From a virus, in IMG/VR virus record IMGVR_UViG_3300027842_000017, positions 1 to 28,879 of that record: a DNA stretch of 28,879 bases; one strand, 5' to 3'. Both the position numbers and the translations under genes were made by a program. Below are positions 8,203 through 11,782 of the stretch, in pieces (position 1 is the first letter of the stretch; every line of letters begins with the position of its first letter). The notes under the pieces are model-generated. The model ran no database searches and was not told the DNA's origin. It saw nothing but the letters and a program-made list of their open reading frames with translations.

Positions 8203-8406
8203 ATGAGCCAGATGCACGACATGGCGGGGGCCAAGAAGAAGAAGTGGATCGGCGGGGCGGTGAAGAGGCCGGGGCAACTTCATCGAGACCTTCACGTGCC
8301 CCAAAATGAAAAAATTCCAGCGGCCAAACTCCATGCGGCGGCAGAGCGCGGAGGGAAGGTTGGACAGCGGGCACGGCTTGCTGAGACCCTGAAAGGAATG
8401 CACTAG
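8203..8406 (+). CDS. Small basic phage protein
   Basis: ATG 8203 has a strong Shine-Dalgarno (GGGAGGT). The 67-aa product is Lys/Arg-rich, with the arrangement KKKKWIGGAVKRPGQLHRDL...LAETLKGMH, a pattern I know from many small hypothetical phage proteins encoded near terminase or head genes. Its function is not established. The TAG stop (8404-8406) overlaps by two bases the stop of the minus-strand endonuclease (8403-8405). Its last bases, ATGCACTA, recur at 8973, on the far side of the inserted endonuclease gene. Confidence 0.6.
   Translation: MSQMHDMAGAKKKKWIGGAVKRPGQLHRDLHVPQNEKIPAAKLHAAAERGGKVGQRARLAETLKGMH
8398..8405. repeat. ATGCACTA direct repeat, left copy
   Basis: Eight bases at the end of the small basic gene, repeated exactly at 8973-8980. 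The pair flanks the minus-strand LAGLIDADG gene and looks like the boundary of an insertion (target duplication or microhomology). Confidence 0.55.
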
Positions 8407-8948
8407 CTGCATGGACAACGCTTACGTCCTTTCCCAAACGGAGGAACGTTCACGCCAGCATTCTGAAGTGCTATTTTGAGTCTTGAATGATGCCCAGGCC
8501 GCAGCCCCATTTTCTTGGTTATGCACCTCAAGCTATGTCCCTCACTCCAGAGGCGAGAGGCTTCTGGAACGCGGGACTGCTCTACCGGTGGGCGCAGTGT
8601 CCAAGCAATTATTCGCTGGAGCGTAGCGGCTTTGACAGGGGCACCAAAGCCAATCTTTTCGGAGAAGGCGCAAATGCTGACCGCGCGGCTGATGTGAAGA
8701 GTCCTGACTGGCTTTCTGTTTTTACGTCTGCGCACATTCCACTCACGCCATTCTATGCCAAGTGCGGAGAGATACTGTTGGCATGTGTCCATCAGGGCAA
8801 AATCAGTATTGGAAACCGAAAGGCAGTACGTTGCATGCTTGTAGTTCTTGTTGCCGGACCTAAGACTGGCAGATCCTTCTCCGTCAAAGAACCCCCTGAG
8901 CCAGCCAGCCATGAAAGGAATGGATTCAGAATGCTGCACGCCTTTCAT
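8403..8948 (-). CDS. LAGLIDADG-family homing endonuclease
   Basis: Minus-strand gene, 181 aa from ATG 8948; alternative starts are ATG 8912 (169 aa) or GTG 8977, and none has a convincing Shine-Dalgarno. Near the N-terminus of the 8948 form is the motif MAGWLRGFFDGEGSASL, the single-motif LAGLIDADG signature (W-L-x-G-F-F-D-G-E-G), with the acidic catalytic residue in DGEG. An alpha-beta-beta pattern follows (YCLSVSNTDFALMDTCQQYL, then RTLHIS), as in monomers that act as homodimers. The C-terminal part (SEGHSLRCITKKMGL) looks like a helix-turn-helix DNA-binding tail. It stands alone against the direction of all neighbours between the small basic gene and the gene before terminase, and is flanked by an 8-bp direct repeat, so it is probably a mobile insertion. 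The open frame extending upstream to 9236 is a shadow of the + strand gene. Confidence 0.8.
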   Translation of the reverse strand: MKGVQHSESIPFMAGWLRGFFDGEGSASLRSGNKNYKHATYCLSVSNTDFALMDTCQQYLSALGIEWREWNVRRRKNRKPVRTLHISRAVSICAFSEKIGFGAPVKAATLQRIIAWTLRPPVEQSRVPEASRLWSEGHSLRCITKKMGLRPGHHSRLKIALQNAGVNVPPFGKGRKRCPCS

Positions 8949-8980
8949 AATATCATAAATGATCCAGTTGAGATGCACTA
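8406..8980. mobile_element. Inserted homing-endonuclease segment
   Basis: A 575-bp segment carrying only the minus-strand LAGLIDADG gene. Removing it with one ATGCACTA copy would join the end of the small basic gene directly to AGGGAGCAACCACG and GTG 8995, restoring the tight + strand spacing seen elsewhere. This is inferred from the direct repeats and the strand switch; no uninserted allele is available here. Confidence 0.5.
8973..8980. repeat. ATGCACTA direct repeat, right copy
   Basis: Exact copy of bases 8398-8405, located just before the Shine-Dalgarno of the gene at 8995. Confidence 0.55.
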
Positions 8981-8994
8981 AGGGAGCAACCACG

Positions 8995-9252
8995 GTGGCC
9001 ATCATTGGCCTAGATCCAGATAGCGACGAATCCGCTTGGGTGCGGGAGTTATTTGCGTCTATCGATATGAGCGAGCGTGTCAGGCTGTACATCCTTTGCA
9101 AGCAACTAATGGGAAAGGAAGCTCGAATCAACAGCGGAACGTGGGCGGATGACGCTCCCGATGGAAACATCAAGTCTTCTCCGCACGGACCCGTTCCCAT
9201 AGATTTTATAGCCTCCATGCAGGCAATGGCAGCCAAGAACGGGAAGCGGTAG
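8995..9252 (+). CDS. Small protein upstream of terminase (possible small terminase)
   Basis: GTG 8995 is chosen because AGGGAG at 8981-8986 gives an ideal 8-base spacer; an in-frame ATG at 8959 lies in the inserted endonuclease segment. The 85-aa product (start V-A-I-I-G-L-D-P-D-S-D-E) is acidic then helical (ERVRLYILCKQLMGKEARI). Its stop is followed after one base by the terminase TTG start. Position fits a small terminase subunit, but it is shorter than usual and I see no clear helix-turn-helix, so the role is unassigned. Confidence 0.55.
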   Translation: MAIIGLDPDSDESAWVRELFASIDMSERVRLYILCKQLMGKEARINSGTWADDAPDGNIKSSPHGPVPIDFIASMQAMAAKNGKR

Positions 9253-9253
9253 T

Positions 9254-11782
9254 TTGAGCACGGTTGCAGACCTACTCCTGGAAGAGAAGATAAAGCGCCG
9301 AGAGGCCAAACCCCAGTCCCTCGCCCGTTTCAGGGAAGACCCCCTTGGGTTCACGATGTGGGATTTCCCTTGGGGCAGGGCGGGCACTCCACTTGAGCAC
9401 TTCGACGGCCCGGATACGTGGCAAAAGGAGTTCCTTGCCGAACTAGGGGAGCAGGTCCGGTCCCGCCACTTCGATGGGCACACCCCGGTAGCCCCCATCA
9501 AAATGACCAGAAGCGCGGGAAAGGGGGTCGGGAAGTCGGTCCTTGTAGCGATCCTATGTAACTACATCATAAAGACTTGGCCATTCTCTCAAGGAACCAT
9601 TACCGCGAACACTTTTTCGCAACTTGAGACGAAAACATGGGCCGCCATCCAGCACTGGTTTGGTTTGTCGCGATCCTCGAACGATTTTATAGTCAGTGGG
9701 GCCGGGGTTCAACACAAAATACACAAGAAGTCATGGCAGTGCCACCCGGAAACGTGCCGGGAGGAGAACGCAGAAGCCTTCGCTGGCCAACACGCGGCTA
9801 ACTCGGTGGGATTTTTCATTCTTGACGAGAGTTCGGCTGTCCCTGAGAAGATTTTTGAGACTGCCGAATCACAACTTGTCGATGGGATGCCCATGATCTT
9901 CGCTTTTGGGAACCCTACGCGATCAAGCGGTAAGTTTTTCAAGATCAACTTCGGAATCGAGAAAAACCGTTGGAACAATGGCTTCAATAACGGAGTCGTA
10001 GACGCCCGCGACTGCAAAGTTCCTAACAAAAAGACAATTGCAGAGGAGATCGAGTACCGGGGTGGGGAAGAAGACGATTACGTTCGGGTGTACATCCGGG
10101 GACTCCCCCCCAACGCCTCGGACATGCAGTACATCGATTCAGGGCGTGTTTTTGCGTCCCAGGTGCGGGTTGTGGAGGTGCTTTCAGATGAACCGGTGGT
10201 TGCGGGGGTAGATTTGGCGCGTGGCGGGGGGGATAAAGCCGTGATCCGGTTCCGGCAGGGCGACGATGCCCGGAGCATCCCCCCAATCAAGATCCCCGCA
10301 GAGCAGACGCGAGACTCGATGCTCCTGGTGGCCAAATTGGCGGATCTGGCCACGCGGACAATCAACGGAAAGAAAGTGGCAGCGTGGTTTGTGGACGGGG
10401 GCGGCATAGGTGGCCCGATCATTGACCGGCTTCAGCAGTTGGGCCACAAGAATTTCTTCGAGATTCAGTTCGGGGCGGCGTGCCCCGACCCAAGGCACTT
10501 CGCCAACATGCGGGCTTGGATGTGGTCCAGAATGCGGGACGCCCTTGGGAGCCGGTTGGCCATCGACAAGGACCGGGAACTGGAGATGGATCTGACCTCG
10601 GTGGGGCTGGGTCGCCCGGATAAGACGGATCGGATTATACTTGAGAGCAAGGAAGACATGAGGAAACGAGGATTGGCCTCTCCTGACGACGCCGACGCCC
10701 TCTGCTTCGTGAAAAATACGATGATCCGAACAGCCAAAGGTTTAATCCCGATCCAGGATGTACGAGAAGGGGATATGGTCCTCACTCCGTTCGGATACTC
10801 AGATGTCGTTATGGCGCACGTAAGCGATACGTGCAGCCTCACGACGGTGGGATTTTCCAACGGAGCGGCCTTGTCCGGGAAGGGGAGCCACGAAGTATTC
10901 ACCTTCCAATCTGGACGTACCCGCCTAGACGCGCTATCATTGACTAGTGAGGTTGATACCTACAGTCAATGGAGGCGGATGCTATGGCAACTCGTGAGTT
11001 TGTCATTTACAGGGGCGAGAAGTTTTGGATTCAAACAAGCGGCGCATACTTTCAATCTGGGCGAAAGGACGCACCGGAGAGACTTCTTCACCGCAGGGTT
11101 TACGAGGAGCATCACGGACATATCCCAGAGGGGTTTGAGGTTCATCACAAGGATGACGACTGGCGCAACAACGATCCTGGAAACCTCGAACTTCGCCCTG
11201 GTGGAACCCATCAACGAGAGCATATGCGAAAACGGTTCTCCGATCCAGCGGCAGTCGCCAAGAACCATGAGTATCTTGAGAAGGCTAGGGCCGCAGCAGC
11301 CGAATGGCACGGATCTCCAGAGGGAGTCGCTTGGCACAGCGAACTCGGCAAGAAAACATGGGAGAATCGGCAGACCACTACCCTTGTTTGCCAAAAATGC
11401 GGAAAGAACTTCGAGACCTACTTTGCCAGCCGAAAGGGAGAGAAGAAGCCAAAGTACTGCTCCTCCGCATGCCTACAAGCCGTTCAGTTCAGGACGTATT
11501 TCACAGATCCTCGAATTTGTGGTTTCTGCGGCATACGGTTTATGGCGAATCGTCATCGGAAGACGGCCTGTTGTTCCACTGTCTGTTCAAACCGAAAGCG
11601 TGTCGCCGACGCCAACCTACAACCTAACGCTAAGGGAGCATAACGCCTACTACGCGAATGGTATCTTGGTGTTCAATTGCCTGACGTGGGCGCGGCCAGT
11701 GTTGGCCCCGGAACCTCCCCGCAAGAAGAGGGAGGAACCGTTTTCGAGTTCGCGGGCGAGTGCGACTTCATGGATGGGCTAG
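9254..11782 (+). CDS. terL: Large terminase subunit containing an intein
   Basis: The 842-aa precursor starts at TTG 9254, one base after the previous stop, with GGGAAG upstream. ATPase domain: Walker A AGKGVGKS (88-95), Walker B FFILDE (D191, E192), motif III FAFGNPTRSSG (~217-226). Nuclease domain: VAGVDLARGGGD (D320) and AWFVDGGGIGG (D381). The third acidic motif SPDDADAL (476-483) is cut after Leu483 by an intein of 325 residues (Cys484-Asn808). The C-extein resumes at Cys809 (CLTWARPV), giving a spliced enzyme of about 517 aa, a normal TerL size. It packages phage DNA into the prohead through the portal. Without splicing, the conserved motif would be separated from its C-terminal flank and packaging should fail. 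Confidence 0.9.
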   Translation: MSTVADLLLEEKIKRREAKPQSLARFREDPLGFTMWDFPWGRAGTPLEHFDGPDTWQKEFLAELGEQVRSRHFDGHTPVAPIKMTRSAGKGVGKSVLVAILCNYIIKTWPFSQGTITANTFSQLETKTWAAIQHWFGLSRSSNDFIVSGAGVQHKIHKKSWQCHPETCREENAEAFAGQHAANSVGFFILDESSAVPEKIFETAESQLVDGMPMIFAFGNPTRSSGKFFKINFGIEKNRWNNGFNNGVVDARDCKVPNKKTIAEEIEYRGGEEDDYVRVYIRGLPPNASDMQYIDSGRVFASQVRVVEVLSDEPVVAGVDLARGGGDKAVIRFRQGDDARSIPPIKIPAEQTRDSMLLVAKLADLATRTINGKKVAAWFVDGGGIGGPIIDRLQQLGHKNFFEIQFGAACPDPRHFANMRAWMWSRMRDALGSRLAIDKDRELEMDLTSVGLGRPDKTDRIILESKEDMRKRGLASPDDADALCFVKNTMIRTAKGLIPIQDVREGDMVLTPFGYSDVVMAHVSDTCSLTTVGFSNGAALSGKGSHEVFTFQSGRTRLDALSLTSEVDTYSQWRRMLWQLVSLSFTGARSFGFKQAAHTFNLGERTHRRDFFTAGFTRSITDISQRGLRFITRMTTGATTILETSNFALVEPINESICENGSPIQRQSPRTMSILRRLGPQQPNGTDLQRESLGTANSARKHGRIGRPLPLFAKNAERTSRPTLPAERERRSQSTAPPHAYKPFSSGRISQILEFVVSAAYGLWRIVIGRRPVVPLSVQTESVSPTPTYNLTLREHNAYYANGILVFNCLTWARPVLAPEPPRKKREEPFSSSRASATSWMG
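10971..10975 (+). promoter_or_regulatory. Internal Shine-Dalgarno for nested HNH ORF
   Basis: GGAGG lies 8 bases before ATG 10984, inside the intein coding sequence. It favours ATG 10984 over the upstream in-frame ATG 10969, which precedes it, and suggests independent translation of the nested endonuclease from terminase mRNA. Confidence 0.6.
10984..11643 (+). CDS. HNH homing endonuclease nested out of frame inside the terminase intein
   Basis: This 219-aa ORF lies wholly inside the intein, in the -1 frame relative to terminase, with its own Shine-Dalgarno. It is the more protein-like of the two frames here. A basic-aromatic N-terminus (FVIYRGEKFWIQ) is followed by the HNH core: VHHKDD (residues 53-58), NNDPGNLE (~62-69) and THQREH with H76 and H80. 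After a helical linker come two Cys clusters (CQKCG...YCSSAC and CGFCG...CCSTVC), two likely zinc fingers for DNA binding. This order matches phage HNH endonucleases that spread introns and inteins. It should cut intein-free terL near the insertion site. The stop TAA 11641-11643 falls within intein block F. Confidence 0.8.
   Translation: MATREFVIYRGEKFWIQTSGAYFQSGRKDAPERLLHRRVYEEHHGHIPEGFEVHHKDDDWRNNDPGNLELRPGGTHQREHMRKRFSDPAAVAKNHEYLEKARAAAAEWHGSPEGVAWHSELGKKTWENRQTTTLVCQKCGKNFETYFASRKGEKKPKYCSSACLQAVQFRTYFTDPRICGFCGIRFMANRHRKTACCSTVCSNRKRVADANLQPNAKGA

Follow-up and report, generated by a model that had tools for sequence, protein, structure and literature searches.

An HNH endonuclease gene within a terminase intein, in the −1 frame, recurs in phage and prophage genomes

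In textbook inteins, mobility comes from an endonuclease that is fused into the splicing protein. A second arrangement, reportedly described by Dassa et al. in 2009, is that of the split inteins of “fractured genes,” in which a homing endonuclease is said to lie between the intein halves. Inteins of the terminase large subunit (TerL) of mycobacteriophages lie in the ATPase domain and carry in-frame LAGLIDADG endonucleases (Kelley et al. 2016, PMC5050341). The closest published case to the locus described here is the ShiLan domain, an insertion in actinophage DNA methylases with an out-of-frame, “hidden” HNH endonuclease (Arsenault, Gosselin, and Gogarten 2025, PMC11855218). On the subject of reading frames that overlap in actinobacteriophages, that paper cites Gosselin et al. 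(bioRxiv 2025.01.02.630785). Here, we describe a TerL intein across which an HNH endonuclease gene runs in a different frame.

The intein is located in a 28,879-base virus record, analyzed at its full length (the window). Since terL is followed by portal, scaffold-like, and major head protein genes, the window represents a phage packaging/head module. The terL open reading frame (ORF) (positions 9254 to 11782, plus strand; 842 amino acids) matched phrog_2 (E = 1e-28) and phrog_5902 (E = 2e-37) and scored 43% against phage TerL by tblastn. Directly upstream, on the minus strand, is an LAGLIDADG_3 homing-endonuclease-like ORF (8406 to 9236; PF14528, E = 9e-13), which overlaps plus-strand ORFs at 8487 to 8981 and 8959 to 9252 and is a second homing-type gene adjoining the terL target.

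Intein-free relatives mark the end of the TerL N-extein. In two of these, L021 and L024, terL is uninterrupted and reads SPDLADALCLTF and SCDIADALCLTF, respectively, over the insertion point; in the window, the N-extein comprises residues 1 to 483 (9254 to 10702, plus strand) and ends in SPDDADAL. The C-extein (11678 to 11782, plus strand) begins with CLTWARP. Between them are the 325 residues of the intein (10703 to 11677, plus strand), which run from Cys1 (Cys484 of the terL product; codon at 10703) to Asn325 (Asn808; 11675 to 11677) and are followed by Cys809 as the +1 residue; the intein frame is continuous with both exteins and has no stops. The Hint-N half (10703 to 10957, plus strand) contains blocks A and B, with the block-B histidine at intein residue 63 (His546 of the terL product). 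Residues C1, T10, T28, G31, and H63 were invariant in the Hint-N alignments (A4/A5), and the Hint-N profile matched PDB inteins 2lwy and 6qaz (gp41-1). Blocks F and G of the Hint-C half (11618 to 11677, plus strand), identified by profile, read YNLTLREHNAYYANGILVFN and are overlapped by the C terminus of the HNH protein. C1, H63, N325, and the +1 cysteine are all present in the window and were invariant across the alignments. Pfam Hint_2 matched the region from 10703 to 11677 (E = 3e-6) with a score of 28.1, slightly below the gathering threshold of 28.4, and NCBIfam intein_Cterm matched with 22.3 bits (cutoff, 15.6). In the AF2 model of the intein, residues 1 to 100 and 290 to 325 were at pLDDT values of 78 to 98; the two halves together formed a Hint fold, and Foldseek matched it to solved inteins at E values of 1.9e-6 to 7.6e-4. 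The part of the intein frame between the halves that overlaps the HNH gene (11057 to 11506, plus strand) has no conserved sequence, and disorder was predicted for residues 119 to 268 (pLDDT of <50). Because the window intein lacks the block-B threonine (GKGSH) and has phenylalanine instead of histidine at the penultimate position, the rate at which it would splice is uncertain.

The nested HNH ORF is in the −1 (equivalently, +2) frame relative to terL. It begins at 10969 or 10984, the latter being an ATG, and ends at 11643 (plus strand), encoding 219 amino acids from the ATG with an HNH_3 core (E = 1.1e-13) and two Cys4 clusters; it also matched phrog_15471, annotated as HNH endonuclease (E = 1.7e-22). 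Catalytic-motif residues H54, H55, N67, H76, and H80 were invariant, as was the first Cys4 cluster (C136/C139/C159/C163), and the second cluster (C179/C182/C197/C201) was conserved at a level of at least 90%. The AF2 model of the protein had a pLDDT of 91.8; a Foldseek search with it gave no significant match, the best being I-HmuI (E = 0.25). A GGAGG Shine-Dalgarno (SD) sequence (10971 to 10975, plus strand) is spaced 8 nt from the ATG, and the TAA stop codon (11641 to 11643, plus strand) arises from a −1 reading of the block-F codons for His-Asn, CAT AAC. A preliminary description of this DNA, made from the sequence, had called both the terL intein with its Hint ends and a full −1-frame HNH ORF with two Cys4-type zinc fingers and a GGAGG 8 nt ahead of its ATG; the analysis bore out each of these elements.

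The same description held that the intein frame would be expected to gather stops across the HNH gene if it were not selected. For the window alone, synonymous-codon shuffles of the HNH predicted 1.2 intein-frame stops, with a probability of finding none of 0.155; this is too weak, and homologues were therefore needed for significance. Three annotated phages, namely, Tetrasphaera phage TJE1, Acinetobacter phage Highwayman, and Rhodobacteraceae phage LS06, have a nested HNH gene inside their annotated terL, in all cases at the −1 offset and with complete Hint ends. The records of these three phages annotate terL alone; gene callers miss the nested HNH genes. A search of viral contigs with the HNH alignment yielded 80 loci, and among these and others, 68 carried the HNH at −1, the intein being open in what is the +1 frame relative to the HNH. 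Hint-N and Hint-C profiles, applied independently of stops, identified 72 flanked loci, 68 of them contiguous. When Hint-N alone was used for searching, with no use of the HNH, 75 inteins with both halves were recovered; the HNH was at −1 in 71, the remaining 4 (L185, L215, L216, and L229) were mini-inteins of 125 to 150 amino acids, and in no case was an HNH encoded in the intein frame or in the third frame. Bacterial and archaeal genomes added further loci, including isolates of Rhizobium lusitanum P1-7, Piscinibacter sakaiensis, and Beijerinckia mobilis. Pooling gave 123 nonredundant viral and prophage loci, defined by Hint-N and Hint-C profiles in one frame flanking the HNH with no stop criterion, and the HNH was at −1 in all 123, which are related to one another and hence do not represent 123 independent events. 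Of the 123 HNH genes, 105 terminated within the splicing block at the C terminus of the intein, most commonly at the Tyr-Asn (28 loci) or Tyr-Asp (10 loci) codons of the block, where a −1 reading of TAT AAC and TAT GAT gives TAA and TGA. Most insertions in TerL were in the nuclease motif, but the same intein type was sometimes found at a Walker-B-like site (L195, L141, L210, and similar loci), where the C-extein has the form CDELA.WR...TTTP. In one locus (L089, 2650 to 4200), the gene that carries such an intein with its nested HNH encodes a DegT/DnrJ aminotransferase (PF01041, E = 2.4e-18) and not a terminase.

Over the HNH genes of the 123 loci, not one intein-frame stop was found, versus 197 ± 8 expected from synonymous shuffles. 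The corresponding count for 22 HNH relatives lacking an open intein frame (free-standing or split) was 122 stops versus 117 expected, and these HNHs had 338 stops in the third frame. Thus, the expectation that an unselected frame would gather stops carried little weight for the window itself but was supported by the homologues, with the linker open in all 123 loci. Shared descent, the block-F stop, and the lower stop load of the intein-type frame are plausible contributors to the constancy of the −1 offset. Distances between Hint sequences were correlated with those between HNH sequences (Mantel correlation, 0.31; permutation maximum, 0.09), and the correlation of TerL extein with HNH distances was lower (0.19).

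Selection on the two frames was compared as observed/expected N/S in seven close, nonoverlapping, de-duplicated pairs. The N/S value was 0.34 for the HNH frame and 0.26 for Hint-N, and the third codon position of the HNH was the fastest evolving at every distance; purifying selection acts on the HNH protein, and the Hint half is strongly conserved. For the intein linker, N/S was 1.55, or 0.95 among HNH-nonsynonymous changes. Since the linker is near-neutral and predicted to be disordered, we regard it as tolerated read-through and not as a second conserved protein. The earlier term “dual-coded” is therefore apt insofar as the intein frame is kept open but not with respect to the amino acids of the linker. 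In L020, the HNH is broken and the intein frame is still open; relative to L183, L182 has lost 100 codons in frame within the HNH region, and the intein ends are retained.

We consider it very probable that the window intein, inserted in the nuclease motif of TerL, is a mobile element and that its homing endonuclease is encoded by an HNH gene of its own, which overlaps the intein in the −1 frame, rather than by an in-frame domain. A ribosome reading terL would cross the HNH region out of frame and produce an unstructured linker between the Hint halves, and the Hint domain would then excise itself to leave a working TerL. A second ribosome would initiate at the internal SD sequence and the ATG at 10984 and terminate at the stop formed from the intein's own block-F codons, releasing a free HNH nuclease. 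This nuclease would cut intein-free terL alleles, and repair would copy in the intein together with the HNH gene.

An HNH at −1 in every locus could also reflect programmed −1 ribosomal frameshifting within Hint-N, which would give a TerL–Hint-N–HNH fusion with no independent initiation. Slippery heptamers near the HNH entry point were indeed enriched approximately threefold (19 of 123 loci versus 5.8 expected), but this excess may come from A-rich starts, and no slippery heptamer was found in the window. Moreover, the HNH frame is open upstream for only ~36 nt (median), and SD-start pairs were strongly enriched: an SD sequence of at least 5 nt was located ahead of the HNH start codon in 41% of the nested loci versus 9.5% in a null of matched extein windows. 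The 40% of loci without a recognizable SD sequence of at least 4 nt count against our preferred explanation. Given the number of heptamers and their absence from the window, we treat frameshifting as a minor rival, with a slim probability of being the correct explanation; it may serve as a route in a minority of loci.

The window derives from only one metagenomic record, and one or two indels introduced by sequencing or assembly could disguise an ordinary in-frame HNH intein. The preliminary description had named such an error, or homologues with the HNH in frame with terL, as grounds for rejecting the arrangement. The same offset recurred, however, in 123 loci that include independent contigs, the GenBank phages TJE1, Highwayman, and LS06, and bacterial genomes, and no in-frame case was found among the contiguous loci, so an artifact of this kind is excluded for practical purposes. 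Removal of the insertion as an RNA intron, with an open intein frame that is incidental, has next to no probability either. Group I introns commonly carry HNH genes, but no Rfam intron matched the window, the Hint halves are complete in the terL frame and evolve at an N/S of 0.26, and the absence of stops extends over all 123 loci. A further alternative concerns the function of the HNH protein, which might be a packaging nuclease that aids TerL, in the manner of HK97 gp74, and is parked in the intein. Terminase-adjacent HNH proteins act in packaging in some phages (PMC10448857, PMC12613952), and the HNH family of the window often adjoins terL. Its patchy occurrence, its residence in a splicing element, and the mini-intein or decayed versions (L020, L182, L185, L215, L216, and L229) fit homing instead, and the copy in the aminotransferase gene resides in a host gene that is not involved in packaging; we judge a packaging role in place of homing to be unlikely.

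The HNH family also occurs outside contiguous inteins. Free-standing members immediately follow an uninterrupted terL in L009, L011, L021, and L024, and the L021 protein falls in the window's own clade of the HNH tree. In L005, L013, L087, L097, L101, and L105, the HNH lies between the halves of apparently split terL inteins. The order in Lactobacillus phage CL2 (L013, 506 to 2690) is TerL-N plus Hint-N, then HNH, and then a Hint-C plus TerL-C ORF; terL also appears to be split in L005, L047, L051, L067, L071, L087, L097, L101, L105, L119, L125, and L126, and the Hint-C plus TerL-C ORF of such loci is often unannotated. From their sequences, L013 and the other split terL loci are candidate natural split inteins. 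Brevundimonas phage Poludnitsa (L007, 2911 to 3426) has an unannotated HNH gene in the terL-portal interval. The terL gene of Exiguobacterium phage EauM-23 (L012, 1755 to 2700) is apparently interrupted by an HNH at the same motif (EDKNNH / CDATRYAM); neither a Hint domain nor an Rfam intron was detected in this insertion, and an intron origin, which we had suspected, was dropped since Rfam gave no match. Architecture changed 16 times on the HNH tree, a figure that is only suggestive because the FastTree topology is poorly supported. These relatives fit a cycle of homing: an HNH associated with terL would have entered a mini-intein in a different frame, where it can decay, and splitting may follow, with the direction of the steps being inferred.

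In the nested design, the splicing and endonuclease functions share DNA but not protein, and so Hint and HNH can fold and evolve separately; the sole cost of the nested HNH to the intein is that of remaining stop-free. The loci represent a pair of genes with a long overlap that nature has replicated many times, accompanied by mini-intein, decayed, free-standing, and split relatives, and therefore make the invasion of inteins by endonucleases and the origin of split inteins directly testable. In the literature searched, we found no description of an out-of-frame endonuclease inside an intein. A preprint by Gosselin et al. on actinobacteriophage inteins with noncanonical architecture may describe such endonucleases and may thus overlap with the present work; its topic is actinobacteriophages, and only one actinophage (TJE1) is among the loci here.

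Like the ShiLan domain, the insertion in the window combines an HNH and zinc fingers in an ORF that is out of frame with the host gene, while the host frame stays open; the two also share a stop codon at the extreme end of the insertion and a patchy distribution. Unlike ShiLan, which lacks a Hint or splicing domain, is thought to remain in the methylase, and has no SD sequence found, the type described here has its HNH within an intein, flanked by Hint halves, in TerL, with an SD sequence in many cases and a fixed −1 offset. The TerL inteins of mycobacteriophages share the Hint domain, insertion at a conserved TerL motif, and an endonuclease between blocks B and F, but their LAGLIDADG endonuclease is in frame, whereas the HNH here is in another frame. 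With the split inteins of fractured genes, the window shares a separate endonuclease gene between intein halves and a Hint-N profile that matches gp41-1, and phage CL2 looks split and has the same HNH family; the window intein differs in being one continuous ORF that overlaps the endonuclease. We would give an even chance to the proposal that these loci constitute a distinct class of inteins that is widespread in phages, with a homing endonuclease that is without exception encoded by a separate −1-nested gene rather than fused in as a domain and with an endonuclease stop codon supplied by the splicing motif itself. On this proposal, the class would also connect, in evolutionary terms, free-standing endonucleases next to inteins, composite mobile inteins, and the split inteins of fractured genes.
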